A stretch of 64,000 nucleotides of DNA, from NCBI GenBank assembly GCA_035772405.1, contig JAYKKM010000065.1, positions 1,274,001 to 1,338,000 on the forward strand, read 5' to 3'. The first letter of the stretch is position 1. Each line of letters opens with the position of its first letter. The position numbers were made by a program, and so were the translations under genes. Positions 21,615-41,080 of this stretch are shown here, piece after piece. The stretch is from Chrysogorgia sp. JL179-B06 (taxonomy: Eukaryota > Cnidaria > Anthozoa > Scleralcyonacea > Chrysogorgiidae). The notes beneath the pieces were generated by a model. The model saw only the letters and a program-made list of their open reading frames with translations, was not told the origin of the DNA and ran no database searches.

Positions 21615-22025
21615 AGTAGTATAGAACATGGCGGTGCGAGCTCAGTCGACGCCAACCGTGATATAAACGCCAAAACATCACCAAATTCGTGCCGATCCAC
21701 AACTCAGCAATGTTTTGGTATTTATGTTTTACAATCGACATTGGTGAGCTCACAGCCTCACTCTCTGTGCTATTATGGTAATCATTAGTCAATCTAGACA
21801 CCCCTCCCACGTTTTCTACTCAATTGATGCCAAATACTAAAAAATCACAACTTTCGCTAGACTTTACGCTACTTTAGCCATATTTAAAAAAAGTAGAAAG
21901 TGTCATTTCAGCATTTTCACATTTTTGTTCAACAAACCACCAACACGTTCTGCTACTGTCTCACAAATTCACGCGCGAAAAAAACCCACTAGATTTTGAT
22001 TCTAGTGGTGATGTTTATCCAAATG

Positions 22026-22198
22026 GATAGTATAGAACATGGCGGTGCGAGCTCAGCGACGCCAACCACAAATGCGAGTGCCATAGCAGCGTTAATTTCT
22101 ACGCCAAATCGCGATTTAGCGCAAAAATTAGCGATGCCACGGTGCCCACACTTGTGGATAACGTCGAATAAGCTCGCACCGCCATGTTCTATACTACT
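22026..22198. repeat. Nested inverted pair of the element's terminal motif (left)
   Basis: The terminal 26-bp motif TAGTATAGAACATGGCGGTG-CGAGCT recurs at 22028 in direct orientation and at about 22171..22198 inverted, enclosing some 120 bp with a central palindrome 'aaatcgcgattt'. The unit could extrude as a hairpin. A mirror copy is in the right repeat (about 40497..40669). Confidence 0.85.
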
Positions 22199-22304
22199 AC
22201 AGCAGTCGTTAGTTAGGCTTGACGCACCCCTCCCCACACTCTCCACCGATTAATGTCAAACACGCACAAGACTCGTGAAACAATACTGAATTTATACCAA
22301 ATCA

Positions 22305-22815
22305 CATTTCAGTCACGTTTAAAAATAGTCGCTTCAACATTTTCAGTCACGTTTAAAAATAGTCGTTTCAAAATTTTCAGTCACATTTAAAAAATAATCG
22401 TTTCAACATTTTCACAAATTTGTCAAATCACATTTTAAAAAATAGTCGTTTCAACATTTTCACAAATTTGTTAAATCACATTTAAAAAATAGGAAGTGCT
22501 GTCTCAACATTTTCACAAATTTGTCAAATCACATTTAAAAAAATAGAAAGTGTCGTTTCAACATTTTCACAAATTTGTCAAATCGCATTTAAAAAATAAT
22601 CGTTTCAACATTTTCACAAATTTGTCAAATCATATTTAAAAAATAGCCGTTTCAACATTTTCACAAATTTGTCAAATCACGTTTAAAAAAATAATCGTTT
22701 CAACATTTTCACAAATTTGTTAAATCACATTTAAAAATAGAAAGTGTCGTTTCAACATTTTCACAAATTTGTCAAATCACATTTAAAAAAATAGTCGTTT
22801 AAACATTTTTACAAA
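22305..22815. repeat. Subterminal tandem array (left)
   Basis: About ten degenerate units of roughly 46 bp contain 'cgtttcaacattttcac' and 'aaatttgtcaaatcacattt' in alternation, some with an added 'agaaagtg'. The mirror array is at 39882..40392. Its regularity and position near both ends suggest a role in replication or packaging, or repeated slippage. No direct evidence distinguishes these. Confidence 0.9.
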
Positions 22816-22872
22816 TTTATGTATCGTAAAAGTGTCTCACGCGTGATAAAATTGCCACCTGTTAATAATAGA

Positions 22873-23388
22873 TTAGTCCGTTTGTTCACTATTTTCAGCG
22901 TTTGTCGCGCTTCTAAAATGGTGATCGTACACATATTTCGACGTTGTGATTCCTCCCGACAACAAGCCCAAGAAAGGCACGTACGGTGTCACAATCGCAA
23001 CAATGCTCTCGACGTCTTTCTTTAGTAACGGGTCTTTTTGCAACTCGTCGTTTAGTTCGTCAGGGTTCTCAATGGCGTTCAACCCATCTAGTAAGTTAGC
23101 GAATTTGCTGATTAGCAAGTCAGTGACAAAAGCGTTTGCAATTTCCATTCTCTTCAACTCGCATTGGCGCCATATCTTATCGATAGCCTTTGCGGACGCT
23201 TTTTTAATGTACGCTTCAGATTGGCTTACCATACCATCACCAGACAGTCTAATAAGTTCGGCTCTCCTAACGTCAATGTCGTCTTCCACAGTCGAGGCAC
23301 TAGCGGCTTGAGTATCCTCAACTAACTCCTCAATCGTGGGGTTTTCTTCACTTTTGCGTTTCACCATCACGCTATTACTTATACCCAT
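22873..23388 (-). CDS. Putative N-myristoylated virion-associated protein, 171 aa
   Basis: The start at 23388 gives MGISNS, which fits the N-myristoylation pattern (Gly2 with Ser6). A charged region follows, then a predicted helical segment (about residues 60 to 125) and one hydrophobic stretch near residues 130 to 150 (VAIVTPYVPFLGLLSGG). This architecture suggests a membrane-associated structural or accessory protein. The stop lies inside the terminal repeat, so the last 11 codons are shared with it. It is separated from the packaging ATPase by 3 bp and is presumably co-transcribed leftwards with the capsid genes. I recognise no family; function is unassigned. Confidence 0.75.
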   Translation of the reverse strand: MGISNSVMVKRKSEENPTIEELVEDTQAASASTVEDDIDVRRAELIRLSGDGMVSQSEAYIKKASAKAIDKIWRQCELKRMEIANAFVTDLLISKFANLLDGLNAIENPDELNDELQKDPLLKKDVESIVAIVTPYVPFLGLLSGGITTSKYVYDHHFRSATNAENSEQTD

Positions 23389-23391
23389 ATT

Positions 23392-23961
23392 TTATTGCGG
23401 AATAACAACTTCGTGACTGTATGGATAGCGCAGTGAGATTTCGAGTCTAGCGTACTTATTATTTTTTAATGCGGTCACAATCGCCGACGCTTCCTCTTTG
23501 CTAATGTTTCCAAGATAATCGTCAATAACAACCTTCATATCGCTTCTGCTCGGGCAGTAAAAGCAAATGAGCTTACTAATGTTTTCTCTATACGGTTTTG
23601 CGATCGACGTCAGTTGTTGTGTGATGACAATAACGCTCAACATAAAATGTCGCGCACTAAAAGCCAAGTTGACCAATTGACTAGTCCTATTCTTGACGTC
23701 CTGTCCGTTAGTGCCTTTAAAAACATTTGTTACACACTTGAGAACAGCGTCGACATTGTCTTGTGTGCAGTCTATCGCTAACACGTCGGGGTCGCGCACA
23801 TATTTCCAATCTTGATACGCTTTATTCCACTCGAAAGTAGGGCAAATCAACACAATGTAGTCAAATTTGCTACAATACTCGGATTCCAATGTCTCCAGCA
23901 AATAATGCGTCTTACCACAAGCTGTCATACCAACAATTAGCGCATTAAACGGAGTTTCCAT
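23392..23961 (-). CDS. A32-like DNA-packaging ATPase, Walker B segment missing
   Basis: This is a HerA/FtsK-superfamily genome-packaging ATPase (189 aa), expected to pump DNA into the capsid. Walker A is VGMTACGKTH (residues 10 to 19). The later conserved blocks are LAFSARH and SVIVITQQLTSI (about 102 to 124), with the polar residue of the sensor-like motif in ITQQ. The hydrophobic strand ending in Asp-Asp/Glu, which should lie between the two halves, is absent: the sequence runs from FKGTNGQDVKNRTSQL straight on. The missing ~10 residues would be an in-frame deletion. It is placed next to the capsid protein gene, as in Polintons and adintovirus-like viruses. The fold assignment is strong; activity is doubtful. 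Confidence 0.88.
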   Translation of the reverse strand: METPFNALIVGMTACGKTHYLLETLESEYCSKFDYIVLICPTFEWNKAYQDWKYVRDPDVLAIDCTQDNVDAVLKCVTNVFKGTNGQDVKNRTSQLVNLAFSARHFMLSVIVITQQLTSIAKPYRENISKLICFYCPSRSDMKVVIDDYLGNISKEEASAIVTALKNNKYARLEISLRYPYSHEVVIPQ

Positions 23962-23976
23962 TAAATTACGCTTGAT

Positions 23977-25215
23977 TTAATACCCGATTGAATGCAACCC
24001 ATTGTTCACGAAGTTGACCAACCCATCACTCATCACAAACACCCTGCACATAACATTTGCAGTCGTCACTTTCTTAGTGATCTCAAGAAGCACGCCGGAT
24101 TGTGTGTTCACAATTTTTTTACCAGTGGCGACGTTGTAATTATCTTGGACGCTCCTCAAGTCAATGACTAACGCAAAGCCATCTTTATAGAACTTCTGTA
24201 TAGTCATGAACTGAGCGTGCTCTTCACCCAACCCAAACAATCGTTTCGCTTCTGCATAGAACTTCGACTTTGGAATGCCTTGTGAGTACACACTATTTGG
24301 CACACCTTCAATTGTGACTCTAACACTCTCGATATTCGGGTAAAGAAACTCCTCGCTGTCTGTTCGCACCTTATTCGTGAATAGCAACACAATTGCCTTC
24401 ATGCTTTTTCTTGGAAGATTAATGTTTTCATTCACAATGGTCGTGCCTTTGTCCCATTCGGTGGTTTTCATCAACGTGATGTGCTCATATGACAAACTAC
24501 GACCACTTGCATACAACGACGTTATTTCGTCAGCGAGCTCCTGGTTATCAATCGTCTCATACTCAAGCTCGAGGTTCTCCAGAGTGTATCCGCCCACAGC
24601 GCTACCGGATTGCGCCACCATGATGTCTGTGACCTTCGGAAGTGTGATCACATACTGCAAGTTGTTGTTCATGCTAAAAGGAGCGTACAACCCATGGTCG
24701 TTCATAATTTTACCAAGCTTAATCCGCTGTTTCGTCCCAATCACACCAAACATCAACGCGTCACTAACTTTAGCAACGTTCCCACTTGTCGCACCACTGT
24801 CATCCTTAGAAATTAGCTTTCTCAAGTTTTCAGAGCCAACACCATAGTCAATCATTTGGTCTCGCGCAGTAACACTCTCCCAAAGGTCGCGATAAACACC
24901 AGTGTAATTTTCCCCACTGTTGTCGTACACAGTCTCCCCAGCTAGTCTCACAATAAGTTTCTCAACCAACAACTTGCTCACATTATTCAAGAACCAGCTT
25001 TTGGCGTTTGCATTTTTAAAGTCGAACACTAGACCCAACGATCCAGGCACCAAACAGCTGCTAACCTTGAGCTTCGGTATGTCAATGTAGAGTTCCTCGC
25101 CAGGACTGGCCTTATTAGGGTTCAACGTGATTACGTGTTGCGTTCTCGCCCCTTTTATGACACCCATGGTCGCTCGTCTAAAACCGGGGCTCAACTCTGC
25201 TGACGTGACGTTCAT
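23977..25215 (-). CDS. Probable double-jelly-roll major capsid protein, compact (412 aa)
   Basis: The start at 25215 gives a 412-aa product with no signal peptide. Capsid-like features include an N-terminal beta-rich part with KLLVEKLIVRLAGETVYD, a middle segment ITLPKVTDIM and the stretch LENLELEYETIDNQELADEI, then MKTTEWDKGTT and INLPRKSMKAIVLLF. The order and the beta-strand/loop alternation fit the two jelly rolls of a minimal PRD1-like fold, as does a position directly beside the packaging ATPase. At 412 residues it is short compared with the roughly 600 residues common in Polintons. The assignment rests on context and pattern; a structure prediction would decide it. Confidence 0.7.
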   Translation of the reverse strand: MNVTSAELSPGFRRATMGVIKGARTQHVITLNPNKASPGEELYIDIPKLKVSSCLVPGSLGLVFDFKNANAKSWFLNNVSKLLVEKLIVRLAGETVYDNSGENYTGVYRDLWESVTARDQMIDYGVGSENLRKLISKDDSGATSGNVAKVSDALMFGVIGTKQRIKLGKIMNDHGLYAPFSMNNNLQYVITLPKVTDIMVAQSGSAVGGYTLENLELEYETIDNQELADEITSLYASGRSLSYEHITLMKTTEWDKGTTIVNENINLPRKSMKAIVLLFTNKVRTDSEEFLYPNIESVRVTIEGVPNSVYSQGIPKSKFYAEAKRLFGLGEEHAQFMTIQKFYKDGFALVIDLRSVQDNYNVATGKKIVNTQSGVLLEITKKVTTANVMCRVFVMSDGLVNFVNNGLHSIGY

Positions 25216-25237
25216 ATACTTTACATATGTTTTGTCA

Positions 25238-26119
25238 CTACCGTTTTAGCTTGTAATAATCATAGGCAAACCACGCAAGTACCACCGCGAGTACCCACAG
25301 ATTTTGAGCCAACCACGCGAGACCCTTTGCACCCAACGTCAACGCATTATAAACTAAGTTAGCCAACCCAACAGCCCATGGACCCATCTTCGTTATCGCG
25401 TTCTTAACAGCCTGTGCGAACGACCTCGTAGCCATAGCGCCTCTCATAACAGCAGACCTCCCAGCGATAATAATAGTTGTTATAATTCCAGCCACTGAAA
25501 TTGCCACAGCGCTCAACCCAACCATATTCTCTTTAGCCCATTCCTTGAATTTCTGAAACCTGTCAATGTCGATCTCTTGTCGCTCTCTAACCTCTTCTAT
25601 TTCTAGCTGTCCTAAAGTTCTGTATTTAGCTTGCGTAAGTCCAATAACTCTTTCGTGTAGATCAATGTACTCTTCGTTCTCTGCAGTTGTAAGGTCTTTT
25701 CCCTCAAGCTCTACTATTCTTTCATTCGCTTTATCTATCGCTTCTTGAAAATGGTTTGCTTGTATTCGCAACGCACCATTGGCATCTATTCTTGATTCGC
25801 GCACCACACCATCGCTTGGGTTGAGCACACCATTCAGCTCGCGGTTTTCGTCTGGTGATAACCCAGGTATGTCGTCATAGACCACTTTTGTCTCAACTAC
25901 TGGGAAGTCATCTGGGATCACTTCTGTTGTGACAACTGTTGTCTCTGTATTCTCAGGGATTTGACTAACTAACTGTTTGAACTGCTCAATCGCGTTTTTA
26001 CTACTCGCGTCTTTACTGTAGATCAAGCCTTTTTTCCAAGGTATTAGAATTCGTTTGGGTTTTCCATATTTACCATCTTTGTTTATCGGTTTGAAAAGAA
26101 TAGACCCTGAGTCCGTCAC
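25238..26119 (-). CDS. Multi-helix membrane protein, no ATG start
   Basis: The 293-aa frame has a charged N-terminal half with a long helix (about residues 115 to 190, Glu/Arg-rich), then hydrophobic segments: VGLSAVAISVAGIITTIIIAG (about 200 to 220), a basic amphipathic stretch (MRGAMATRSFAQAVKNAIT), and two more hydrophobic spans towards the end (GLANLVYNALTLGAKGLAWL and LWVLAVVLAWFAYDYY). No ATG is available: translation would have to begin at the GTG at 26119 or enter from upstream. The frame stays open upstream into an A11 run that ends the preceding gene, so it may be the second half of one protein. A virion membrane or penetration role is possible but unproven. Confidence 0.7.
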   Translation of the reverse strand: MTDSGSILFKPINKDGKYGKPKRILIPWKKGLIYSKDASSKNAIEQFKQLVSQIPENTETTVVTTEVIPDDFPVVETKVVYDDIPGLSPDENRELNGVLNPSDGVVRESRIDANGALRIQANHFQEAIDKANERIVELEGKDLTTAENEEYIDLHERVIGLTQAKYRTLGQLEIEEVRERQEIDIDRFQKFKEWAKENMVGLSAVAISVAGIITTIIIAGRSAVMRGAMATRSFAQAVKNAITKMGPWAVGLANLVYNALTLGAKGLAWLAQNLWVLAVVLAWFAYDYYKLKR

Positions 26120-26153
26120 ATATGATCTGTTGGCTATTTTCCTTGACGCGTCG

Positions 26154-26495
26154 TCACGACCGAGTCTTTTTTTTTTTATACAACTTATGTATTTTCTTAT
26201 CTATTAGCTTGATTCTTTCTACTTCGTTTTTTACTCGATTTTTTTCTAACTCTTTGTTGAATGCATTTAGCTCACCAAGTCTTCTCTCAAGATCGTCCGA
26301 CTTTACAAAAGATAGATCGAAACTTGCATCACCAACGTCACCGTACAACTCCTGTTCAACAAACTCTACCGCTGGGACTTCTGTGTTGGTCCCCCTTATT
26401 GTCACCGTTTTACCATCGTCGGTGTCGGTGAACGGTGTCTCTTTTTCTTGAACCCCTCTTCTATCCCGTTCATACTGCAATTTATTCACTCTCAT
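26154..26495 (-). CDS. Charged 113-aa protein ending at an A11 run
   Basis: The start at 26495 (MRVNKLQYERDRRG) is preferred over the longer upstream frame because it overlaps the preceding gene by only 14 nt. The product is rich in Asp/Glu and Lys/Arg and ends KKKKTRS, where the Lys codons lie in a run of 11 A residues (plus-strand T run at 26166..26177 region). A one-base slip backwards there would join the frame of the following membrane protein. No known domain is visible; a coiled-coil propensity is suggested by the LEKNRVKNEVERIKL segment. Confidence 0.6.
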   Translation of the reverse strand: MRVNKLQYERDRRGVQEKETPFTDTDDGKTVTIRGTNTEVPAVEFVEQELYGDVGDASFDLSFVKSDDLERRLGELNAFNKELEKNRVKNEVERIKLIDKKIHKLYKKKKTRS

Positions 26496-26682
26496 ACAAT
26501 TTGTCATACTTGATACGCACGATGTCTGGCATGTCGTCGTCATCAGCGTACTCATCGTCAATTAAATGATAATCTCGAGAGAGTTTTTCGAGTTCGTCGT
26601 TTATTTGATCATCGGTGTACCTATCAAGTCTATCGAAGTTCTCCATCTCAATCTCGTCAAAACCTTCCCCACCTTCAGCCAT
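26482..26682 (-). CDS. Small acidic protein, 66 aa
   Basis: The frame starts MAEGGEGFDEIEMEN and is very Asp/Glu-rich (DDEYADDDDMPDI). It lies 6 bp downstream of the integrase stop and its 3' end overlaps the start of the next gene by 14 nt, a compact arrangement typical of this leftward block. A small acidic protein beside capsid genes may be a scaffold or DNA-mimic, but there is no motif to support either. Confidence 0.55.
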   Translation of the reverse strand: MAEGGEGFDEIEMENFDRLDRYTDDQINDELEKLSRDYHLIDDEYADDDDMPDIVRIKYDKLYESE

Positions 26683-26688
26683 ATTACA

Positions 26689-27792
26689 TTAGCTCACATT
26701 TTGAATATCGCTTTCTGGTATCCACGAATTATGTTTGCTCTCATAACCTAACCATTTGACTAGCGCCATCTTCTTCCCTCTGACTTTCTTTCTTTTCAAC
26801 ACCTTTTCTACTCTGTACACATCGTCACCATGTTTCTTATTAACCAGCGATAGTTCCTGTTCATAAAATTTCCCAATAATCTGTTCACCGGTGTGGTCCT
26901 CAATTTCGTACACATTCGGATCACCGCGAATAACTTTCACCACTTTAAACAGCTCCTCAGTGAAGTTGGCTTCATAACCCTTTGTGAACACACTCTTGTA
27001 CTTACTAATTCTCACTGATTGACCAACTCTAAACTTTGGCAATGGGTTGTCTGCAAATTGGTGACCAAACAAAGTGGTCCACACTTCGCCTTCGTTTGAC
27101 TTATTGACATCCTTCGGCTTCATCATAATACTGCGGTTCACATTGCTATTGTAATTGCTTACAAACTGGTCCAAAGCGTCGACCCATCTATACGTCCCAC
27201 GGGTGTAAAAGTACTTCCACATAATACTCTTCAGACTTCTATTAAAACGCTCAACAACAGCAGCCTTTTTATTGCTCTTAGTGCTGAAATATTCAACACC
27301 GCGTTCTTTCAGCAAACTTTTAACACCAACGTTATAGAACTCAAGTCCGTCGTCAAATTGCGCTAATTTAGGCGTGGCTCCAAACCGATCTTTAAAGTCA
27401 ACCAACAATTTTCCAACAGCCTTAGTCATGTTCTTAGTGTCTTTTCTATAAACCGCGATGCCAAAAGCGTATCTACTCAATATCTCAATGCCTGTCAATA
27501 TCCAATAATAACCACCATTCTGTTTTGAGTGCTTACTCATGTCCACTAAGTCCATTTGGAGCTCTTCACCAAGAAACCCGACGAAGGTAGCACGGAATTT
27601 ATGTCTTCTCACAATAGGTTTGTACCTAGTGTAGGTGTCCTGCGCTGTCAACCATTCTTTCACTGTTTTTCTAGTTACTTTCAATCCGTCTCCCAACGCG
27701 CTTTGATACAACCTCTCTACACCACTGAACCCTGTCTTAGGATTGTAATAAATGTCTCTCAACCCTTGCTCTGTTTCCACACCAAGCTCCAT
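26689..27792 (-). CDS. Retroviral-type (RVE) integrase with C-terminal chromodomain
   Basis: This is the Polinton integrase expected to cut and join the element's ends to a 6-bp staggered target. I chose the ATG at 27792 because the codon three residues upstream (27801) is GTG. In the 367-aa product the catalytic triad appears as QMDLVDM (Asp about 81), AQFDDGLEF (Asp about 147) and VVERFNRSLK (Glu about 181). The C-terminus holds a chromodomain (about residues 325 to 363) with YRVEKVLKRKKVRG and VKWLGYESKHNSWIP. An N-terminal HHCC zinc module is not evident. It starts 5 bp after the previous gene's stop. Chromodomain integrases in retroelements bias insertion toward modified histones; that is an inference here. 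Confidence 0.92.
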   Translation of the reverse strand: MELGVETEQGLRDIYYNPKTGFSGVERLYQSALGDGLKVTRKTVKEWLTAQDTYTRYKPIVRRHKFRATFVGFLGEELQMDLVDMSKHSKQNGGYYWILTGIEILSRYAFGIAVYRKDTKNMTKAVGKLLVDFKDRFGATPKLAQFDDGLEFYNVGVKSLLKERGVEYFSTKSNKKAAVVERFNRSLKSIMWKYFYTRGTYRWVDALDQFVSNYNSNVNRSIMMKPKDVNKSNEGEVWTTLFGHQFADNPLPKFRVGQSVRISKYKSVFTKGYEANFTEELFKVVKVIRGDPNVYEIEDHTGEQIIGKFYEQELSLVNKKHGDDVYRVEKVLKRKKVRGKKMALVKWLGYESKHNSWIPESDIQNVS

Positions 27793-27797
27793 ATAAT

Positions 27798-28589: not shown

Positions 28590-28614
28590 TACTTTAGCGT
28601 GCGTTTAGCGTTAG

Positions 28615-29277
28615 CTACTCAAGCGTTGCATACAAATCCAACAATATGTCACCAACGTTGACACCATTACCATCTTGGTCAGTCACATTAAACACCAGCT
28701 GCGTAAAAGCGCCTTTGTTTATCGACACCTTCGACTCAATGTTGAAGAAGTGTTGAACCGAGCTCTTCAGTGGTTGGGTGGTGGTCAATGGTAGCTCGAC
28801 GATAACCTCGCTTTTGCTACCACTAACAATGTTCTCAGGTCTGTTCACAATGCTACAACCTACTTGCACATACCTCAACCCTTTGTTAACGTCCACAACA
28901 TTAGGGCTGACCAAACCACTAGTGGTTATCGTTGTGTTATCGTTGAACCCTAAGAGTTCTCCAAATTTAAACAACTCTAATTGTTGGTCAGTTCTTATCG
29001 CACACTTTGAATTGTGTTTGTTGGCTACTAGCTCAATAGCCCCTATTCCTCTCAATTCGTCGGCAATCATTTTAAAAGTCTGGTACCCAGACTCAAAAAC
29101 GTGTTTGTTGCTGTTGTAACTTATTTCATCATTCACACCGGTCTCCACGTTAACGTAGTCCCAAAAGATGGTCGCTTTTTTCACTAGTAAGTGAGGATCT
29201 GAGCCAAACGTCAAAAGTGCCTCTGGTAGATCCACAGTTTCCGTTGGGCCTCTAATCAATACTACAACCCTGACCAT
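28615..29277 (-). CDS. Structural protein paralogue, 220 aa
   Basis: I chose the ATG at 29277 (MVRVVVLIRG) so as not to overlap the divergent gene; an in-frame ATG lies 30 bp upstream. It is beta-rich and shares its C-terminal layout with the 263-aa neighbour: GLRYVQVGCSIV, ELPLTTTQPL, IESKVSINKG, ending VGDILLDLYATLE. It lacks the MSLNYG N-terminal peptide. Two paralogues side by side suggest duplication and division of labour in the virion, for example alternative vertex subunits. This is inference from sequence and position only. Confidence 0.65.
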   Translation of the reverse strand: MVRVVVLIRGPTETVDLPEALLTFGSDPHLLVKKATIFWDYVNVETGVNDEISYNSNKHVFESGYQTFKMIADELRGIGAIELVANKHNSKCAIRTDQQLELFKFGELLGFNDNTTITTSGLVSPNVVDVNKGLRYVQVGCSIVNRPENIVSGSKSEVIVELPLTTTQPLKSSVQHFFNIESKVSINKGAFTQLVFNVTDQDGNGVNVGDILLDLYATLE

Positions 29278-29321
29278 ATATAATGTAGCATGTGTTATGT
29301 GTAACATATGGTATATTATAT
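29278..29321. promoter_or_regulatory. 44-bp bidirectional promoter region
   Basis: The only non-coding gap between two divergent late-type blocks. It carries TATA-like strings toward each side ('atatataatg' and 'gtatattatat'). The symmetrical placement and short length imply shared regulation of the leftward capsid genes and the rightward 503-aa gene. Confidence 0.45.
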
Positions 29322-30803
29322 ATGCAGAAAGCCCTTCACGACTACTATGGAAAGTACTACAAACGTGCGATGGCTAACACATCGAAGGCTACACACGATG
29401 CAAAGGCAGACCTTATCAAAAAGTACCCTCACGCTACTCTAAACAAATTCGAGTTCTATCCAAATATTTCGCAAGACGGTAAGATCATGAGTGTCGACAT
29501 ATATTTCAGAAACAACGACATCCTCAGCACAGACATAACCAGCGCAACTTTCAAAAATGATAAGAACATGTGGAAGTGGCTACACAATAGTAAGTTCCCA
29601 ATAATATGGCAAGGCGGTGGGACTATCCAACCACTACCAAAAGGTCATAAAAACCATTGGAGGCTTTGGGATGGTTATCCAACAGAAAATGTGTTAAATT
29701 ATCCAGTGAACAACTTTAAAGTTTTTGTTAACCAAAATAGCTACTTCATGTCAAAGCTACCAGTCTTACAAATCACCACGTCAAAGACAAAATCAGAGTG
29801 GGATGACAACGAATCTTACTACCGCGTTGTGTTTGCGACGTATTGTGCAAGTTTCTGTTGTGGAGTGTCGTTGCAACATTTATCAGTGTCACAAGAAGTT
29901 CACCCTGTGGTCACAAGTGTGATGAGATTTCATTTGTACTTCACCATTAGAAGACTTCTCAGAAGAATGGAAGGTGGTGAGACCATGAAATCAATAAGTA
30001 GAGAATTTAACGCTTCCGAATTGTATGGCAAGATTTCCAAGATTCCCAGAAAACATTACTACCAGAATAAAGTCCTGAGCGATGGCACAACAGGTGAATC
30101 CAGAGTCTTCACACTCAACGACATCCGTAACGATTATAAACGATATGTCGCGCGATTGTCAGACGGCTTCACCAACATTGGGCTGCAATATCTAAATCAG
30201 AGCATAGAAGCCTTTGTGTACTCCACACTTGGTGCGCAAGCGAGAACACGTGTATCAGTCGTTGGTGGTTCTGCAGGAAGTCTAGAGACCCAACAAGAAT
30301 TCCGCAAGTTGTTTTCTGACAGTGTTATCAACTACGACGTATCAACATGGATTCTCAACATGAATAAATCGATTAGAGACACCAACGTTGTCCAAAATCT
30401 CGCAGTGTCACCAAGTACATGGTTAATGCCGAGTAACCTAGTGATTCTCAAGAATAAAATCGCTGGGTACAACAACTTATTAAAGATTGCCACAGAGTCC
30501 ATGAAATTTGGAGTGAACACTCGCTTGAATGCAACAACACCAACAATTACGGCTAAAAAAGTCCACCAAGAAAATGTGGTGACTCACTCATTAGTAGTGC
30601 CAACAACCGTGAAGAAAAAAGCTCACCAAGAAAATGTGGTGGTACCAACGACTGTGGCTAAAAAAGTTTACCAAGAAAGTGCGGCACCACTTCCCACGAG
30701 AAAAGCAGTGGCCACAAGTAAGTCAGACACGACGACGTTGGCGATAATCTTGGGGTTCTCAGCAGCCTCTGGTTATCTGCTAACCAAATACACCTTGAAG
30801 TAG
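29322..30803 (+). CDS. Large virion-type protein with C-terminal membrane anchor, 493 aa
   Basis: I start at the ATG at 29322 (MQKALHDYYGKYYKR); the further upstream codon is GTG. The body is rich in aromatic and basic residues. Near the C-terminus (about residues 410 to 460) three imperfect repeats with HQENVV/YQESAAP motifs separate Thr/Val/Ala/Lys linkers. The final residues (TLAIILGFSAASGYLLTKY) form one transmembrane helix. It stands at the head of the rightward block, with the fibre-like protein 3 bp downstream. I recognise no family. A membrane-anchored virion or terminal protein is a possibility. Confidence 0.7.
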   Translation: MQKALHDYYGKYYKRAMANTSKATHDAKADLIKKYPHATLNKFEFYPNISQDGKIMSVDIYFRNNDILSTDITSATFKNDKNMWKWLHNSKFPIIWQGGGTIQPLPKGHKNHWRLWDGYPTENVLNYPVNNFKVFVNQNSYFMSKLPVLQITTSKTKSEWDDNESYYRVVFATYCASFCCGVSLQHLSVSQEVHPVVTSVMRFHLYFTIRRLLRRMEGGETMKSISREFNASELYGKISKIPRKHYYQNKVLSDGTTGESRVFTLNDIRNDYKRYVARLSDGFTNIGLQYLNQSIEAFVYSTLGAQARTRVSVVGGSAGSLETQQEFRKLFSDSVINYDVSTWILNMNKSIRDTNVVQNLAVSPSTWLMPSNLVILKNKIAGYNNLLKIATESMKFGVNTRLNATTPTITAKKVHQENVVTHSLVVPTTVKKKAHQENVVVPTTVAKKVYQESAAPLPTRKAVATSKSDTTTLAIILGFSAASGYLLTKYTLK

Positions 30804-31963: not shown

Positions 31964-31971
31964 GTTATGTA

Positions 31972-32112: not shown

Positions 32113-32136
32113 TTTTTTTTTTGCGAGGCTATAGTA

Positions 32137-33134: not shown

Positions 33135-33707
33135 TTAATTTTGCGTGGAAGGATGATGACGTCTGCACACTGCGCGATATTGCTCAGCACCACCAACGAA
33201 TGATGGTCCTGGGTTGTATCTCCAATTGAATGGCGCTTCAACAGTTGTTCCGTAAGTGTCGCGACAAACGGCGCAATACGCTTTTAGAAATGTGATGTCG
33301 TCTGCCATTGGGAACAATGTGTCGAGCTCGCCAATTCTTTTTAAACGCTCTGTCGCTATGAGACCACAAATAATGACGTGAATGCCAGCTTTGACATACT
33401 CGCAAATAATTGGGAGTAGATCAGAGTACCAATGGCCCTCATCAATGCCGATGACGTCGTAATCAGCTATCTCAGAAGAGCTTGGGAGGTTGGTGATTAA
33501 CTTCGCAGGTAAACTGTCTGATCCAACGACAATGGTCTGGCGATGTGTGGAGAACGCGTGGTCAGTTCGCCTAGTGTCGCCTGTGTTGTTCATGTAGAGG
33601 ACTTTGAGCCCTGATTTACTTAACGTGATTAACCTACGAAGAGTCTCTGTCGTTTTTCCTGCGAACATGGGACCAATCACGATTTCTAGCTTACCGAGTT
33701 TCTTCAT
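33135..33707 (-). CDS. tk: Thymidine kinase (TK1-type), 190 aa
   Basis: The enzyme phosphorylates thymidine to dTMP with ATP in the cytosol. Walker A is GPMFAGKTT (residues 12 to 20). The Walker B/catalytic site is IGIDEGHWYSD (Asp89-Glu90), with His where cellular enzymes usually have Gln in the -DEGQFF- block. The zinc site is built of C145-x2-C148 and, further on, C181-x2-H184. The lasso-like nucleoside-binding block before the terminus (YNPGPSFVGGAEQYRAVCRRH) is present. Length fits TK1-type enzymes (about 190-235 aa). A viral-type nucleotide-supply enzyme is unusual in a Polinton, and it sits in a short leftward pair with the 209-aa gene. All catalytic residues look intact. Confidence 0.95.
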   Translation of the reverse strand: MKKLGKLEIVIGPMFAGKTTETLRRLITLSKSGLKVLYMNNTGDTRRTDHAFSTHRQTIVVGSDSLPAKLITNLPSSSEIADYDVIGIDEGHWYSDLLPIICEYVKAGIHVIICGLIATERLKRIGELDTLFPMADDITFLKAYCAVCRDTYGTTVEAPFNWRYNPGPSFVGGAEQYRAVCRRHHPSTQN

Positions 33708-33790
33708 GATTACTATACCTCCAGAGAAATGTTCTCTCCTGTTGCGGCAACTGTTGTTCGTTGTTAAATATCCGCTGAAGCTCTAAGTTT

Positions 33791-34420
33791 TTAAGATGAG
33801 CTCTCGTGTCTCAAGCGATGCAGTGGGTCGTTGGTGACCACACCGCATGGGTGACAGGTGTACACGTTTTCGTCTCTCGCAAAGTGTCTGTGGGCGGGCG
33901 AGAGTACGTGGTCCCTGATATCGTCCACACCTAGTATTTCCTTACACCCAACCTTGCAAACGTGAACGTCGCGGTTCGCGGCGAGATCTAGCCACGCTTT
34001 GGCTTTGGTTGGGCATGGTTTCCATATAAGGGTCACTAAGAACACTTGGAGGAAGTTACCGAGTAACGTACCGTTGGACCCACTAGGGTTGTTCAAGTAG
34101 ACATCACTTGCTAACATAAGGTACTTGAATGATGAGTAACACCACACAGGGATTATGCTAGCTAATCTATCAGCAATCTCCTTGGCTCTATCTTCTCGAA
34201 GATCGATCCAAGTGTCGTGAAGATGCCTCGCACAGTCGACCTGGGGGATAGGCTGTTTTATTAACACCTCTTCACGTCTGAGGTCGAGCAGATTGTATAT
34301 TGAAAAGTACTCGTTTAAGACGTTGGGTCCATTGTCGACTCGTGGGGTAGACACACTGACAAAGGCCGTTCTCAGCAAGCGGTCAATAACTTCTTCGCTA
34401 ACCTCTCGGTCTTGAGTCAT
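33791..34420 (-). CDS. Cys/His-rich protein of unknown function, 209 aa
   Basis: The start at 34420 gives MTQDREVSEEVIDRLL. The N-terminal 140 residues are largely helical with a hydrophobic segment (LLGNFLQVFLVTLIW). The C-terminal 55 residues contain Cys/His pairs (VCKVGCKEIL, HVLSPAHRHF, YTCHPCGVV, RLRH) that could bind one or two zinc ions in a C2H2- or treble-clef-like arrangement. The start is 176 bp from the divergent 99-aa gene, across a repeat-bearing promoter region. No family is recognised. A transcriptional or nucleic-acid-binding role is possible. Confidence 0.6.
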   Translation of the reverse strand: MTQDREVSEEVIDRLLRTAFVSVSTPRVDNGPNVLNEYFSIYNLLDLRREEVLIKQPIPQVDCARHLHDTWIDLREDRAKEIADRLASIIPVWCYSSFKYLMLASDVYLNNPSGSNGTLLGNFLQVFLVTLIWKPCPTKAKAWLDLAANRDVHVCKVGCKEILGVDDIRDHVLSPAHRHFARDENVYTCHPCGVVTNDPLHRLRHESSS

Positions 34421-34596: not shown

Positions 34597-34896
34597 GTGA
34601 AAAGTGTTAAGGTGAAGGACCCAAAGCGTGTCGCTGCTGGTAAGAAGTTGGCCGAGATATCGAAAGCTGCGAAAGAGAAGAAGATGCGTGAAATGATAGT
34701 TAACGAAGAACAGGGTGGTGAGTGGAGCTATGGTTATATTGTCGGGACACTTGGTGTTATCATTGCTGCTGCTTCGCTATGGTACACAATTAGCAGTGAA
34801 AAAGAGACACAACTAGCGCCTGTGAGTGCTGCACCAGCTAGTGTGTCAGAGAGTCATAAAACTCGTCGTCCAGCGTTAGACACATTTGATTCTTAA
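34597..34896 (+). CDS. Small single-pass membrane protein, 99 aa
   Basis: Basic N-terminus (KDPKRVAAGKKLAEISKAAK), one hydrophobic helix (about residues 45 to 66: SYGYIVGTLGVIIAAASLWY) and a polar tail. The codon at 34597 is GTG; the next in-frame ATG is residue 31 (34687), while the frame stays open upstream to a stop at 34549. The true start is unresolved. It is the first of three consecutive rightward membrane proteins. Confidence 0.55.
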   Translation: MKSVKVKDPKRVAAGKKLAEISKAAKEKKMREMIVNEEQGGEWSYGYIVGTLGVIIAAASLWYTISSEKETQLAPVSAAPASVSESHKTRRPALDTFDS

Positions 34897-34911
34897 ACAA
34901 AACACACGACA

Positions 34912-35154
34912 ATGTATATGACTGCGATCGATCGAAAAGAACTTATGAACGAATTGTACGATGCGCTACTTGTCACGACTGGTGCTGTGGCAGTGAGTAT
35001 GATTTCTAAAAAGGCTTTGGGAGAACCATTGGGAACACCAGAGACTGTGAGAGGCACAGTGAAACTTGCTGCGGCTGTTGGTGCAGGAACGCTGCTAGTA
35101 AAGTGGGTGCAATCGAAAAAGTGGATACCGACAGACCCATTCAAATCAACGTAA
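34912..35154 (+). CDS. Small membrane protein, 80 aa
   Basis: MYMTAIDRKELMNEL, two short hydrophobic segments (LLVTTGAVAVSMI, and KLAAAVGAGTLLVKW) separated by a polar loop, and a basic end (VQSKKW). It lies 15 bp after the previous gene and is followed by the next after 4 bp, so all three likely form one transcript. A holin-like or virion-membrane role is a guess from topology. Confidence 0.55.
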   Translation: MYMTAIDRKELMNELYDALLVTTGAVAVSMISKKALGEPLGTPETVRGTVKLAAAVGAGTLLVKWVQSKKWIPTDPFKST

Positions 35155-35158
35155 GTTA

Positions 35159-35578
35159 ATGGTGAGTGTTGTGGCTGGAGGGATTTTTAACGCAGTGGCT
35201 TTTGCAGGCGCTGGCTTTATGTTTTCGAAATTTAATCACTCAGGCTATGAAGCTGAGATGAAAAGGCACAACCATGCGTTGGAACAGCTAGCCAGTGCGA
35301 AAGAAGTGTGGTATGAAAATGAAGTCGCTAAGAAAGATAAGATCCAGCGTTTGCGACAACGGCTCTCTGACGCTAATGCTGACATCAATGACACAAACCA
35401 CGCGTTGGAAAAACTTAGAAGCGTAATGACCATACAGTACAGCGGACGAGTGTTCACTGACCTCCCGAAGATTGCGGATTACTACCAACCAAGTGCGGAA
35501 ATGAAGGAATACCAATTGTTGTTTGTTGGCGCGCTAGGTTTGGGTAGCGGAATAGCGGTGTGGGTACTAGTTCGGTGA
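35159..35578 (+). CDS. Membrane/coiled-coil protein, 139 aa
   Basis: An N-terminal hydrophobic segment (SVVAGGIFNAVAFAGAGFMF), a heptad-rich central part (KDKIQRLRQRLSDANADIN, about residues 60 to 90) and a C-terminal hydrophobic segment (YQLLFVGALGLGSGIAVWVL). The TM-coil-TM layout resembles small virion or spanning proteins. No known family is recognised. It is the third gene of the membrane cluster, followed by the zinc-ribbon gene after 26 bp. Confidence 0.55.
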   Translation: MVSVVAGGIFNAVAFAGAGFMFSKFNHSGYEAEMKRHNHALEQLASAKEVWYENEVAKKDKIQRLRQRLSDANADINDTNHALEKLRSVMTIQYSGRVFTDLPKIADYYQPSAEMKEYQLLFVGALGLGSGIAVWVLVR

Positions 35579-35604
35579 GAAAAAATGTTGGAGTAGTATA
35601 AGCG

Positions 35605-36168
35605 ATGGACAAACTTATGAGGCAGATGAGTTATGGCTTGACAATTGACGAGATCGCGAATGAGACGCAAATTGAGTGTGGAGGCACCTTCAGGATTCAC
35701 CACTGCTCGGATTGTGACGTTGTGAAAAACATGACTGACTGCGGTGGGTACGCGTGTCCAAAGTGTGGCGACATCGAATGGGGATACATTCAGAGTTATG
35801 GTGACATGAGACTCACGCGACTAAAAAGCGTTCACAAACGGTCTTGGTGGATGGGAAGGAGACTACGGAATGTTGTGAAGGGTGAGCACCTTGAGTTGAT
35901 AAAAGAGGACTTCCTGAAAGTTGTCAATGTGCTGCACTCATGCAATTTGATAAAGGGTAGAAATGTTAGCAGATACGGATACTACATTATTAGGTTGTGT
36001 CATAGAAGACAACTCGAGACACTCAAAAGGGTGCTAGACCTCAAAGACGGGAAGGTGAAAGATAAGTTCGACGACAATCTGTTTGGGGTGGTGTACCCAA
36101 AGCTGGGATGGTGTGAAAGTGGCGATATTTATTACAATGAGTGGGCTAAGAAAAAAAGTGTAGTGTAA
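35605..36168 (+). CDS. Zinc-ribbon protein, candidate late transcription factor, 187 aa
   Basis: The N-terminal third has a zinc ribbon with Cys pairs (HHCSDCD ... DCGGYACPKCGD, about residues 32 to 60). A helical region follows, with SVHKRSWWMGRRLRNVV, LIKEDFLKVVNVL and ISRYGYYIIRLCHRRQLE. The combination of an N-terminal ribbon and a helix block resembles the VLTF3-like late transcription factors of nucleocytoplasmic large DNA viruses. I rate that match as tentative. It directly precedes the polymerase with a 10-bp gap, so it could be an early regulator of the block. Confidence 0.6.
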   Translation: MDKLMRQMSYGLTIDEIANETQIECGGTFRIHHCSDCDVVKNMTDCGGYACPKCGDIEWGYIQSYGDMRLTRLKSVHKRSWWMGRRLRNVVKGEHLELIKEDFLKVVNVLHSCNLIKGRNVSRYGYYIIRLCHRRQLETLKRVLDLKDGKVKDKFDDNLFGVVYPKLGWCESGDIYYNEWAKKKSVV

Positions 36169-36178
36169 GTATAAGCCA

Positions 36179-39100
36179 ATGAGTCAGACTGTGAAAAACC
36201 CACTGACAAAAAGACGGGCGCATAAGACGAGTGCATCCGTTGAAAATTCACTAACAGATGAAGCGACCAACGTTCACGGCTTCTTTAGAGATCAAGAGGG
36301 ACAACCTGCAGTCGAAGACCTCGCACCGTCAACGCATCTGTTGGATCGAGCACTGAGAGGGTTCACAAGGTCCTATGGAGTCGAGGTGATTGACGACAGA
36401 GACATCAATCAGGTAAACGCTAGTAGAAGTGCTGTCACTAACCTTTTGAGACGTGAGCTGGGTGAGACCAACGGAATGAAAGTGGTAGAGACAGTCAAGG
36501 TCACTTTTGAGAAAGTTTTAGAGCGTGATAAGACCACATACAAAACTGCCTACTTTAACAGCGAAACGTTCGTCGTCATTAACGAGCATGACATCGAGGG
36601 TGTCGCCAATCGTGGGTCGGAGCAGATTTTGACGCGGATAGCTGGGTGGTTATCTGAGGGGTCTGGATGGACTATCGACAAAATAGATGCGCACTACGTC
36701 AACGTCGCTATTTACAGACCTTTGCATGGGAGTAGCTACATTGCGTTGCCAAAGGAGCTGTGCAACAGTATGAAGGGTCTGATAAATGTAAATAACGATG
36801 ATGACAACGAGTGCTTTAGATGGTGCCACCTCGCACACAAATTTCCTGTTGGAAAAAACTCTGACAGAACGTCAAAGTACGTCAGACATGTCAGTGAGCT
36901 GAACTACGACGGAATCGACTTCCCAGTCGCACTCAAAGACTACAACAAGATCGAAAAGGCAAACGATATTAGCATAAATGTTTTTGGGTATGAAGATAAG
37001 CAGCCATTCCCTGTGTACGTTTCTAAGGAAGCGTATCCCGACCATATGGACCTATTGTTGATAACTAACGACGTGGGCAACAAGCATTATGTATACATTC
37101 GCGATTTTAACAAATTCATGCACCGGCAGACAAAGCACGAGGCGAGAAAGCACTTTTGTAGGTATTGTTTGCAGTGTTTTACCCGAGCGGACGTGCTCGA
37201 ACGCCATGTGGAAGTATGTTTGGTCATTAATGGGAAGCAAGCTATTAAAATGCCGCAAAAAGGTGCGAAAGTGAAATACGAGAATTTTAGCAGACAATTA
37301 AATGTACCATTTGTGGTGTATGCAGACTTCGAGGCTATCACACAGAAGGTGCACACAACAAAGCTGTCAAGCGAGTGTAGCTACACAAACGCTTATCAGA
37401 GACACGTTGACTGTGGCTATGGGTATAAATTAGTTTGTTGCTATGACAATGAGTACAGTAAGCCAGTAAAAGTGTATCGCGGTGAAAACGCAGTCAACAA
37501 GTTCGTTGGGGAGATGTTAGAAATTGTCGAATATTGTAAAGAGACATCTGAGAGTCACTTTAACAAAGAAATGATACTGACTGATGCCGATAAGAAGAAC
37601 TTTGACGAGGCTAAGAGTTGTCATATTTGCAGTGTTGAGTACACTGGTGCTGACGTTAGAGTGAGAGACCACTGTCACGTGTCAGGTAAGTATAGAGGGT
37701 CTGCGCATCGTCAGTGTAACGTGAACTTTAAGTTGACTGACAAAATCCCTGTGATCTTTCATAACTTACGTGGCTACGATAGTCATTTCATTATGCAGGA
37801 GATTGGCAAGTTTGGTCAAGACATAAACGTGATACCAAACAACATGGAGAAGTACATGGCGTTCATGCTTGGAAAAAACTTGGTATTTTTGGACAGCTTT
37901 CAGTTCATGAGTAGTGGTCTAGACAACTTGGTGAAGAACCTACCAAGAGACGCTTTCAAATACACGTCAGAAGTGTTTCGTGATGAGGGGTTGGCACTAA
38001 TGACAAGAAAGGGGGTCTACCCCTACGATTATATGGACTCCTTTGATAAATTCGACGAATGCGAGCTACCCTCCAAAAAGGACTTCTACAGCGTTCTGAA
38101 TGATGAGCATATTACGGAGGAAATGCACGAGCGCGCCATCGATGTGTGGGACTACTTCGACGTTGAAAGTATGGGTGGGTATCACGATCTGTACTTGAAA
38201 AGCGATGTGCTCTTGCTTGCCGACGTTTTTGAGAACTTTAGAAAGACATGCCATCGTGAGTACAAATTAGACCCGTGTCATTATTTTACATCGCCCGGAT
38301 TGGCTTGGGACGCCATGTTAAAGATGACTGGAGTAGAACTCGAATTATTGTCCGACATTGACATGTTTCAGTTCGTAGAATTAGGTATGCGTGGTGGTGT
38401 GAGCTACATATGCAACAGACATGGCGTGGCGAATAATAAGTACATGGAAGGGTATGACAAAGAGCGAGAGTCGAAGTATTTGATGTACCTTGACGCCAAC
38501 AACTTGTATGGATGGGCAATGAGTCGAAGTCTACCCACGGGCGGCTTCAAGTGGTTGACTGAGAAAGAAATAGAAAAAGTTAATCTGCACGACTATCACA
38601 ACAATAGTAAAAAAGGTTTACTGCTCGAGGTCGACTTGGAGTACCCAACCCATTTGCATGACCTACACAACGATTACCCGTTGGCTCCCGAGAAGATGGA
38701 GATAACCGTTGACATGTTGTCGGAGTACTGCACGAAAATCAAAAATAAGTTTAACGTGAGTGTTGGTGGTGTGAAGAAGCTGGTGACTAATTTGATGGAC
38801 AAAAAAAAGTATGTGTGTCACTACGGAAATCTGCAGTTGTACATGGATCTTGGATTAAAAATCAATAAGATTCACAGGGTCCTGCAGTTTGACCAGTCCA
38901 AGTGGTTGGGTAAGTACATCGACTTTAACACAGTCAAAAGAACTGCGGCTAAGAACGCTTTTGAGAAGGACTTCTTCAAGTTGATGAACAACAGTGTGTT
39001 CGGAAAAACGATGGAAAACTTGAGGAAGCGTGTGGACGTAAGATTAGTGACCACTGCGAAGAAATTAGAAAAGCTTGTCTCGAAGCCGACGTTCGTGTCT

Positions 39101-39772
39101 TGCAAAATATTTAGCGAGAACTTAGTCGCTGTCCACAAAGTTAAAGAAACGTTGACACTAAATAGACCTGCATATGTGGGTATGTGCATACTAGACTTGA
39201 GTAAAACGCTGATGTACAATTTTCACTACAATTATATTATGAAAAAGTACTCTAGCGACACCTGTAGATTGCACTTCACTGACACTGACAGTCTGTTGTA
39301 CTCAATCAAAACTGACGACGTTTATTCCGACTTTATGATGGAGTGCGAAAAGTTCGACAATAGCGACTATCCTGCAGACAGCCCATTCTTTTTTAGAGAG
39401 AATAAGAAAGTTATTGGGAAGATGAAGGACGAGTGCGCTGGAACGCCAATTGTCGAGTTCGTCGGGTTGCGCAGTAAAATGTACAGCTATTTGAAAGAGG
39501 GTGGAGGCGGCGGGAAAACCGCTAAAGGTATTAGAAAGAATATAATTAAAAAAGTGATCAGACACGAAGATTACAAAAGTGTGTTACTTGAGCAGAAACA
39601 ATTGCGACACACAATGAAGACCATTAGAAGTGTCAAACATCAGCTCGGTAGTTACGAAATTAATAAAGTGTCGCTATCCTGTTTTGATGATAAACGATAC
39701 CTTTTAGAAAATGGTATTGACTCCTACGCGTATGGTCACAAAAACATTGAAGTGAGAGGCAACAAACGCTGA
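36179..39772 (+). CDS. polB: Protein-primed family-B DNA polymerase, 1,197 aa
   Basis: This is the hallmark replicase of Polintons, priming at the terminal protein on linear ends. Proofreading blocks: YADFEAI (Asp383, Glu385), HNLRGYDSHF (Asp533 vicinity) and YLKSDVLLLADV (Asp676 vicinity). Polymerase blocks: motif A YLDANNLYGWAM (Asp772), motif B KLMNNSVFG (Lys934 to Gly942) and motif C DTDS (1035..1038). Extra modules: a C2H2-like finger at 327..345 (CRYCLQCFTRADVLERH) and an endonuclease VII/HNH-like Cys-His segment at 481..515 (CHICSVEY ... RDHCHVSGKYRGSAHRQCN), both often seen in this subfamily. The N-terminal 300 residues have no recognised domain. All catalytic residues are present. 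The last codons and stop fall within the right terminal repeat. Confidence 0.96.
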   Translation: MSQTVKNPLTKRRAHKTSASVENSLTDEATNVHGFFRDQEGQPAVEDLAPSTHLLDRALRGFTRSYGVEVIDDRDINQVNASRSAVTNLLRRELGETNGMKVVETVKVTFEKVLERDKTTYKTAYFNSETFVVINEHDIEGVANRGSEQILTRIAGWLSEGSGWTIDKIDAHYVNVAIYRPLHGSSYIALPKELCNSMKGLINVNNDDDNECFRWCHLAHKFPVGKNSDRTSKYVRHVSELNYDGIDFPVALKDYNKIEKANDISINVFGYEDKQPFPVYVSKEAYPDHMDLLLITNDVGNKHYVYIRDFNKFMHRQTKHEARKHFCRYCLQCFTRADVLERHVEVCLVINGKQAIKMPQKGAKVKYENFSRQLNVPFVVYADFEAITQKVHTTKLSSECSYTNAYQRHVDCGYGYKLVCCYDNEYSKPVKVYRGENAVNKFVGEMLEIVEYCKETSESHFNKEMILTDADKKNFDEAKSCHICSVEYTGADVRVRDHCHVSGKYRGSAHRQCNVNFKLTDKIPVIFHNLRGYDSHFIMQEIGKFGQDINVIPNNMEKYMAFMLGKNLVFLDSFQFMSSGLDNLVKNLPRDAFKYTSEVFRDEGLALMTRKGVYPYDYMDSFDKFDECELPSKKDFYSVLNDEHITEEMHERAIDVWDYFDVESMGGYHDLYLKSDVLLLADVFENFRKTCHREYKLDPCHYFTSPGLAWDAMLKMTGVELELLSDIDMFQFVELGMRGGVSYICNRHGVANNKYMEGYDKERESKYLMYLDANNLYGWAMSRSLPTGGFKWLTEKEIEKVNLHDYHNNSKKGLLLEVDLEYPTHLHDLHNDYPLAPEKMEITVDMLSEYCTKIKNKFNVSVGGVKKLVTNLMDKKKYVCHYGNLQLYMDLGLKINKIHRVLQFDQSKWLGKYIDFNTVKRTAAKNAFEKDFFKLMNNSVFGKTMENLRKRVDVRLVTTAKKLEKLVSKPTFVSCKIFSENLVAVHKVKETLTLNRPAYVGMCILDLSKTLMYNFHYNYIMKKYSSDTCRLHFTDTDSLLYSIKTDDVYSDFMMECEKFDNSDYPADSPFFFRENKKVIGKMKDECAGTPIVEFVGLRSKMYSYLKEGGGGGKTAKGIRKNIIKKVIRHEDYKSVLLEQKQLRHTMKTIRSVKHQLGSYEINKVSLSCFDDKRYLLENGIDSYAYGHKNIEVRGNKR

Positions 39773-39881
39773 AAATAGTGAACAAACGGACTAATCTATT
39801 ATTAACAGGTGGCAATAACCTAATTTGCATAACAGGTGGCAATTTTATCACGCGTGAGACACTTTTACGATACATAAATTT

Positions 39882-40392
39882 GTAAAAATGTTTAAACGAC
39901 TATTTTTTTAAATGTGATTTGACAAATTTGTGAAAATGTTGAAACGACACTTTCTATTTTTTAAATGTGATTTAACAAATTTGTGAAAATGTTGAAACGA
40001 TTATTTTTTTAAACGTGATTTGACAAATTTGTGAAAATGTTGAAACGGCTATTTTTTAAATATGATTTGACAAATTTGTGAAAATGTTGAAACGATTATT
40101 TTTTAAATGCGATTTGACAAATTTGTGAAAATGTTGAAACGACACTTTCTATTTTTTAAATACGATTTAACAAATTTGTGAAAATGTTGAAACGGCACTC
40201 TCTATTTTTTAAATGTGATTTAACAAATTTGTGAAAATGTTGAAACGACTATTTTTTAAAATGTGATTTGACAAATTTGTGAAAATGTTGAAACGATTAT
40301 TTTTTAAATGTGACTGAAAATTTTGAAACGACTATTTTGAAACGTGACTGAAAATGTTGAAGCGACTATTTTTAAACGTGACTGAAATGTGA
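39882..40392. repeat. Subterminal tandem array (right)
   Basis: Mirror image of the left array: units with 'gaaaatgttgaaacg' and 'aaatgtgatttgacaaatttgtg'. Unit number differs slightly between the two ends, suggesting slippage after or during element replication. Confidence 0.9.
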
Positions 40393-40496
40393 TTTGGTAT
40401 AAATTCAGTATTGTTTCACGAGTCTTGTGCGTGTTTGACATTAATCGGTGGAGAGTGTGGGGAGGGGTGCGTCAAGCCTAACTAACGACTGCTGTA

Positions 40497-40669
40497 GTAG
40501 TATAGAACATGGCGGTGCGAGCTTATTCGACGTTATCCACAAGTGTGGGCACCGTGGCATCGCTAATTTTTGCGCTAAATCGCGATTTGGCGTAGAAATT
40601 AACGCTGCTATGGCACTCGCATTTGTGGTTGGCGTCGCTGAGCTCGCACCGCCATGTTCTATACTATCC
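40497..40669. repeat. Nested inverted pair of the terminal motif (right)
   Basis: Copies of 'tagtatagaacatggcggtg' and its inverse bracket about 120 bp that match the left nested unit (22026..22198). See the left copy for the structure. Confidence 0.85.
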
Positions 40670-41080
40670 ATTTGGATAAACATCACCACTAGAATCAAAA
40701 TCTAGTGGGTTTTTTTTCGCGCGTGAATTTGTGAGACAGTAGCAGAACGTGTTGGTGGTTTGTTGAACAAAAATGTGAAAATGCTGAAATGACACTTTCT
40801 ACTTTTTTTAAATATGGCTAAAGTAGCGTAAAGTCTAGCGAAAGTTGTGATTTTTTAGTATTTGGCATCAATTGAGTAGAAAACGTGGGAGGGGTGTCTA
40901 GATTGACTAATGATTACCATAATAGCACAGAGAGTGAGGCTGTGAGCTCACCAATGTCGATTGTAAAACATAAATACCAAAACATTGCTGAGTTGTGGCT
41001 CGGCACGAATTTGGTGATGTTTTGGCGTTTATATCACGGTTGGCGTCGACTGAGCTCGCACCGCCATGTTCTATACTACT

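Follow-up and report, generated by a model that had tools for sequence, protein, structure and literature searches.

A complete Polinton in an octocoral genome and the population of copies around it

Introduction

It is a long-standing question whether the Polintons of animals go on forming particles. A 64,000-nucleotide stretch of the octocoral Chrysogorgia sp. JL179-B06 genome (GenBank assembly GCA_035772405.1, contig JAYKKM010000065.1, positions 1,274,001 to 1,338,000; hereafter, the window) holds a complete Polinton of 19,466 bp at 21615-41080. The surprise lies in the population that surrounds this element, not in the single copy. The genome carries an estimated total of more than 1,000 two-ended copies, many of them recent and mutually recombined where sampled, which makes the particle question testable by population genetics and offers naturally occurring data on how DNA viruses that integrate recombine within a large population. 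The evidence presented below indicates that the element is probably a recent copy of an octocoral Polinton, understood as a linear double-stranded DNA virus living both as particles and as integrated copies.

Structure of the element

The window element presents the 6-bp target site duplications (TSDs) and long terminal inverted repeats (TIRs) that characterize Polintons:

21609..21614, left TSD, TATATA, 6 bp
41081..41086, right TSD, TATATA, 6 bp
21615..22905, left TIR, with tandem repeats of about 50 bp within it
39762..41080, right TIR

The two TIRs (1.3 kb) agree at 1281 of 1290 aligned positions and show four gaps in addition; seven of the nine mismatches cluster at 22493-22532, within the tandem-repeat stretch. 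Given this identity and the confinement of most mismatches to 40 bases, the insertion looks young. Perfect 6-bp TSDs flank all four elements for which both ends were read (the window element and three others), each with a different sequence (TATATA, GGAGTA, GAGATA and AATGGA); the AATGGA-flanked element, the C181 copy, is inserted where the ATPase gene of another copy begins.

The terminal motif also recurs in inverted orientation about 160-170 bp inside the TIR in 12 of the 20 further copies described below, and in the C44, C185 and C181 copies (examples are L012 2402-2570 and L014 5481-5649). The first stretch of the TIR is therefore an inverted repeat of its own, which may have a role in replication or packaging.

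About 18 credible genes were recognized among the 28 open reading frames listed for the element. The first-pass annotation, made from the letters alone, had counted 23 mostly intact frames; the lower count arises because several listed frames lie antisense inside others or within the TIRs. The gene encoding a membrane protein is interrupted, being split over three frames in the window copy and presenting longer frames in other copies. The genes are as follows:

22873..23388, minus strand, 171-aa protein adjoining the TIR, function unassigned; a match in each of 20 further copies and an open frame in 23 of 25
23392..23961, minus strand, packaging ATPase of the Pox_A32 family (Pfam E 2e-12); frame open in all 25 copies
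23977..25215, minus strand, major capsid protein, 412 aa, predicted double jelly-roll (structure model)
25238..26682, minus strand, membrane-protein gene with C-terminal hydrophobic segments; interrupted here, three frames
26689..27792, minus strand, RVE integrase with C-terminal chromodomain (Pfam); 111 scored places in the genome
27798..28589, minus strand, 263-aa candidate penton or minor capsid protein, a guess from position and paralogy
28615..29307, minus strand, 230-aa protein, paralogous to the 263-aa one; lacking at this position in 3 of 8 copies
29322..30803, plus strand, 493-aa protein, function unassigned; strongly divergent type in 1 of 5 copies
30806..31756, plus strand, 316-aa protein, perhaps fibre-like (weak PHROG tail-fibre match, E 3.7e-4)
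32137..32898, plus strand, BRO-N, VRR nuclease and C2H2 zinc finger (Pfam; zinc finger below the Pfam cut-off)
33135..33707, minus strand, thymidine kinase (TK; Pfam E 1.7e-28)
33791..34420, minus strand, 209-aa fast-changing protein (comparison with four other copies)
34684..34896, plus strand, small protein with one hydrophobic segment (from sequence)
34912..35154, plus strand, small conserved protein, 80 aa (comparison of copies)
35159..35578, plus strand, 139-aa protein, its ends hydrophobic and its centre polar (from sequence)
35605..36168, plus strand, 187-aa protein; its two CxxC pairs resemble a zinc ribbon on inspection by eye
36179..39772, plus strand, DNA polymerase, family B judging by its motifs, into which an endonuclease VII-like domain is inserted (Endonuclease_7 E 4.4e-5)

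Copies in the genome

A search of the genome assembly (781 Mb in 522 contigs) located 1,550 forward and 1,543 reverse instances of the terminal motif, against none for the reversed control, so these instances are not due to chance. Together with the TSDs and the TIRs, they bear out the earlier description of a complete 19.5-kb Polinton, recently inserted and virus-like. An earlier terminus pattern, which misses the window's own end type, had returned 1,069 and 1,059 instances. Ninety of the 100 listed ends could be joined into 45 pairs lying 12-40 kb apart (median 18.8 kb), 34 of them at 15-21 kb; in the 11 pairs above 21 kb, truncation or nesting could have joined wrong ends. Extrapolation from the 100 listed ends yields about 1,390 two-ended elements, amounting to 26 Mb or 3.3% of the assembly, from terminus counts that include subterminal copies of the motif (at least 2 of the 100 listed) and miss variants. 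Element sequence covers 7.2 of 117.7 kb of flanking DNA, with none in the window's own flanks (44.5 kb); because nested insertions bias this figure, it was dropped as an estimate of copy number and the terminus count was preferred. Nesting is evident in the C181 copy, and one other flank consists entirely of a second element.

Of 5,461 candidates at first look, 111 places were scored in the search with the integrase, and the other integrases among these best 111 have 96-98% protein identity to that of the window and no stops. Four other copies, seen piecewise over most of their length, match the gene content and order of the window element except for two genes: two of them lack the 230-aa protein (absent at three of the eight loci compared), and the membrane gene occurs singly or as a tandem pair of paralogues (a pair in 11 of 20 copies). 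The gene set had been considered unusual at first; TK and the BRO-N/VRR nuclease are indeed part of it, but the set is common to these four copies, with one gene missing in two. In all 20 further copies the integrase is followed by the membrane gene, capsid, ATPase and 171-aa gene, with the capsid gene rearranged in one, and a TIR end was found in 19.

Selection on element genes

The ratio of nonsynonymous to synonymous divergence (dN/dS) was obtained for 15 of the 18 genes as simple Nei-Gojobori estimates, using our own script and no significance test, on two to five copies per gene; interrupted genes and those cut by a border were omitted. Lower values correspond to the integrase (0.04), the capsid (0.07), the polymerase (0.08, two copies), the ATPase (0.09), TK (0.10) and the 316-aa protein (0.10), followed by the 171-aa (0.12), 230-aa (0.13), BRO (0.13, two copies) and 187-aa (0.22) proteins, with two small proteins at 0.08 and 0.11. 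Higher values were observed for the 493-aa (0.30), 263-aa (0.37) and 209-aa (0.72) proteins. The 209-aa gene (33791-34420) diverges strongly between copies (54-62% protein identity to the four others, with one C-terminal piece at 85%) next to conserved neighbours, and is a candidate for host interaction.

The estimates were extended to a set of 25 copies, comprising the window element and 24 from the integrase list (ranks 2-5, plus 20 chosen from ranks 9-111). Strict full-length open frames were present in 21 copies for the capsid, 25 for the ATPase and 23 for the 171-aa gene, and copies failing this test (four and two, respectively, for the capsid and 171-aa genes) were dropped. The resulting dN/dS values were 0.073, 0.086 and 0.101, with mean synonymous divergence (dS) of 0.26, 0.26 and 0.35. 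The minimum capsid dS among the 21 copies was 0.136, and the capsid tree is star-like, with terminal branches of 0.62 versus 0.145 for internal ones.

These data bear on the possibility that the element is a genome-bound transposon, with a few master copies jumping in the germ line, no particles, and capsid genes carried as passengers. The integration of elements with TSDs and their insertion into each other fit such a transposon, as do two integrase loci that are 99.8% identical, although the two loci could be haplotypes of a single site, in which case some copies may have been counted twice. Passenger genes, however, should decay, and the dN/dS of the capsid, ATPase, TK and BRO genes lies at 0.07-0.13; a burst from master copies should likewise leave near-identical copies, rather than a star-like tree with capsid dS of at least 0.136. 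We therefore consider a genome-bound transposon unlikely. The pool of copies looks as if selection for virion genes had maintained it, which is what active viruses would lead one to expect.

Recombination among copies

Linkage was analyzed on the 20 copies with usable capsid, ATPase and 171-aa frames. The mean r2 between sites declines with distance from 0.176 (below 30 bp) through 0.093 and 0.068 to about 0.06, the expectation for unlinked sites being about 0.05 (n=20), so that background is nearly reached over a few hundred bases, and all four combinations occur in about 80% of site pairs more than 100 bp apart. The decay of linkage disequilibrium was significant on permutation of positions in each of the three genes (p 0.001), a result that multiple hits alone should not produce. 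Distances between copies are only partly correlated between the two halves of the capsid gene (0.40, p 0.003), and hardly at all between the capsid 3' half and the ATPase (0.10, p 0.20).

Such shuffling could also stem from gene conversion between resident copies after insertion, instead of viral recombination. Ectopic conversion is plausible at more than 1,000 copies per genome, and linkage disequilibrium alone does not discriminate between the two processes. Conversion should nevertheless homogenize the copies and scramble their end types, whereas mean capsid dS stands at 0.26 and both ends belong to one type in 40 of 42 pairs (0.11 by chance); on balance, this explanation appears rather doubtful. 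In three of four copies, moreover, the two TIRs of the same element are nearly identical (1281/1290, 513/514 and 601/602 aligned bases). Since the two ends of a copy mostly match, mixing mostly preceded the insertions. We infer that the shuffling arose as many genomes replicated together and recombined during a virus-like cycle.

A putative virus-like cycle

In the viral cycle proposed here, the N-terminal protein domain of the polymerase itself would prime replication, and TK would supply nucleotides. The A32 ATPase would pack the DNA into a double jelly-roll capsid, yielding particles, and the chromodomain integrase would paste in new copies with a 6-bp duplication. The approximately 1,390 two-ended copies would then represent repeated insertions from a diverse, recombining pool, presumably through reinfection, with recombination occurring during co-replication, prior to insertion. 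Whether the octocoral genome archives well above 1,000 nearly complete genomes of a still circulating and sexually recombining Polinton population, in effect a viral species sampled within a single animal, near linkage equilibrium and with allelic cassettes moving between backbones (candidate pentons that come singly or in pairs, a membrane gene that is single or doubled, and divergent types of the 493-aa protein), is a proposition that we regard as evenly balanced.

Several observations weigh against a viral, freely recombining population. Selection inside one germ line could also hold capsid genes, and an interrupted frame is often present in the copies seen nearly whole. The sample favours young, window-like copies, since 24 of the 25 were picked among the integrases matching the window best. 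A correlation is seen in three of the six comparisons made between parts of genes (r 0.40, 0.35 and 0.19), including the capsid 5' half with the ATPase (0.35, p 0.011) and the ATPase with the 171-aa gene (0.19, p 0.045), and r2 between far sites inside the ATPase gene is 0.079, versus 0.042 expected; some linkage thus remains. The fourth own-copy TIR pair is identical at only 720 of 756 bases, with 15 gaps. Lastly, neither the capsid nor the polymerase returned a relative in IMG/VR scans, which perform best on close relatives.

Capsid, polymerase and integrase

The first-pass annotation had proposed a compact capsid-like protein, and the structure model agrees, predicting a compact double jelly-roll major capsid protein (23977..25215) with a higher structural score against capsids of nucleocytoplasmic large DNA viruses (NCLDV) than against adenovirus hexon. 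Sequence scans were uninformative (best E 0.074 in Pfam, 0.011 in PHROGs, for a family of unknown function, and 0.93 in PDB). The protein has 462 relatives at E ≤0.01; among the best 120 of these, the octocoral Paramuricea clavata is the sole organism named, accounting for 35 matches at 57-65% identity, and no named adintovirus is present. Scans of IMG/VR, best at close relatives, and of GTDB did not find any relative, leaving a capsid family without a relative in the IMG/VR scan.

The candidate single jelly-roll pentons lie at 27798-29307; their structure model (predicted local distance difference test, pLDDT, 37.5) is unusable, and nothing was drawn from it. The 316-aa protein starts with MSLNYG, as does the 263-aa protein, and the two match each other only at E 0.24. 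The A32/FtsK-type packaging ATPase typical of Polintons is present (Pox_A32), and Pfam matches likewise confirm the predicted TK and BRO-N/nuclease fusion. An NCBIfam scan of five non-capsid window proteins provided nothing useful.

As initially noted, no maturation protease is apparent: none of the 18 window proteins scanned has a C5/Ulp1 Pfam match up to E 1, although a divergent protease could escape such a scan. The only cysteine-rich candidate, an HW...CxxxCC stretch in the 493-aa protein, resembles the adenain motif. A protease assignment for this protein was rejected because the cysteines of the stretch are missing in one divergent copy. Proteases of the C5/Ulp1 type are common in Polintons, occurring in 74% of elements, and are not universal (PMC4028283).

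In the window copy, the Exo and Pol motifs of the polymerase are correctly ordered, and all six motif strings searched are present in each of the four other copies. The protein yielded no Pfam PolB match, even in fragments, no PDB match, and no relatives in the IMG/VR scan. By comparison with published Polintons, its N-terminal region may correspond to a terminal protein and an OTU-like domain, with Cys and His strings, read from sequence alone, kept in five of five copies. The integrase is retrovirus-like, as in Polintons (rve 2.1e-5, below the Pfam cut-off), and carries the C-terminal chromodomain that characterizes adintoviruses (Chromo 7.6e-11, above the cut-off).

Relationship to known elements

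Like Polintons/Mavericks (Polintoviricetes), the window element combines a family-B polymerase by motifs, an RVE integrase, an A32 ATPase and a predicted double jelly-roll capsid with a length of 15-20 kb, long TIRs and a 6-bp TSD; it differs in the absence of a detectable C5/Ulp1 protease and in the presence of TK and the BRO-N/VRR nuclease. It is thus a Polinton by anatomy, and probably belongs to a lineage of cnidarian Polintons that has a separate capsid family. The suggestion of a lineage between Polintons and adintoviruses finds no support in that form: passages of PMC10120064 call adintoviruses largely synonymous with Polintons, so there is hardly a gap to occupy. Membership in the alpha or beta adintovirus clades is nonetheless a specific possibility, given an integrase with a chromodomain and a polymerase of the PolB type with OTU-like motifs. 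In the structure search with the capsid, however, an adintovirus protein (labelled penton, 663 aa) ranks 11th at 10% identity, and a MELD virus protein of 420 aa ranks 32nd at 11%; among the best 120 of the 462 sequence relatives, Paramuricea is the one organism named. Such membership is accordingly very unlikely.

Cnidarian capsid genes outside the main Maverick-Polinton cluster have been reported previously, in passages of PMC10120064; they share the host phylum and a divergent capsid with the element, and the source gives clusters, not gene content. The Paramuricea clavata predicted proteins belong to the same capsid family and are not described as Polintons in the literature found, the main text of the genome paper for this species containing no mention of Polinton or Maverick. 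Meldvirus chimeras such as Meld23486 join an adintovirus-like PolB and integrase to virion proteins likened to those of larger DNA viruses (PMC11071296), and the same paper mentions TK for bidnavirus segments. A table in PMC4981718 assigns TK to Megavirales and Caudovirales, and not to Polintons. Polinton-like viruses (PLV) usually lack an RVE integrase, according to passages of PMC4642659, unlike the window element.

Vertebrate Mavericks, as described in PMC8097293, average 22 copies per genome; the highest total in a single genome is 287, every one of them defective, and the maximum number of intact copies is 38. The two-ended copies reported here far exceed that maximum, with the proviso that "intact" there demands open genes and here both ends only. 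Purifying selection on vertebrate Maverick capsid genes is read in the same paper as evidence of particles and reinfection. The portions of the open-access literature searched contain no description of a recombining Polinton population of this kind.

Other observations

Contig C460 contains a MutS gene three times, as long open frames of 747, 986 and 987 codons at a spacing of exactly 19,002 bases. A mitochondrial MutS gene is a mark of octocorals, and the repeat is perhaps the mitochondrial circle assembled end to end. The frame lacks TGA, which is unexpected under the mitochondrial code, so this reading falls short of proof. Together with the Paramuricea relatives of the capsid, the MutS repeat indicates that the host is probably an octocoral. 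Within the window, inspection by eye identified a pair of reverse-transcriptase-like open frames on the minus strand at 4915-6388 and a HARBI1/PIF-like transposase in two overlapping frames at 53441-54579.
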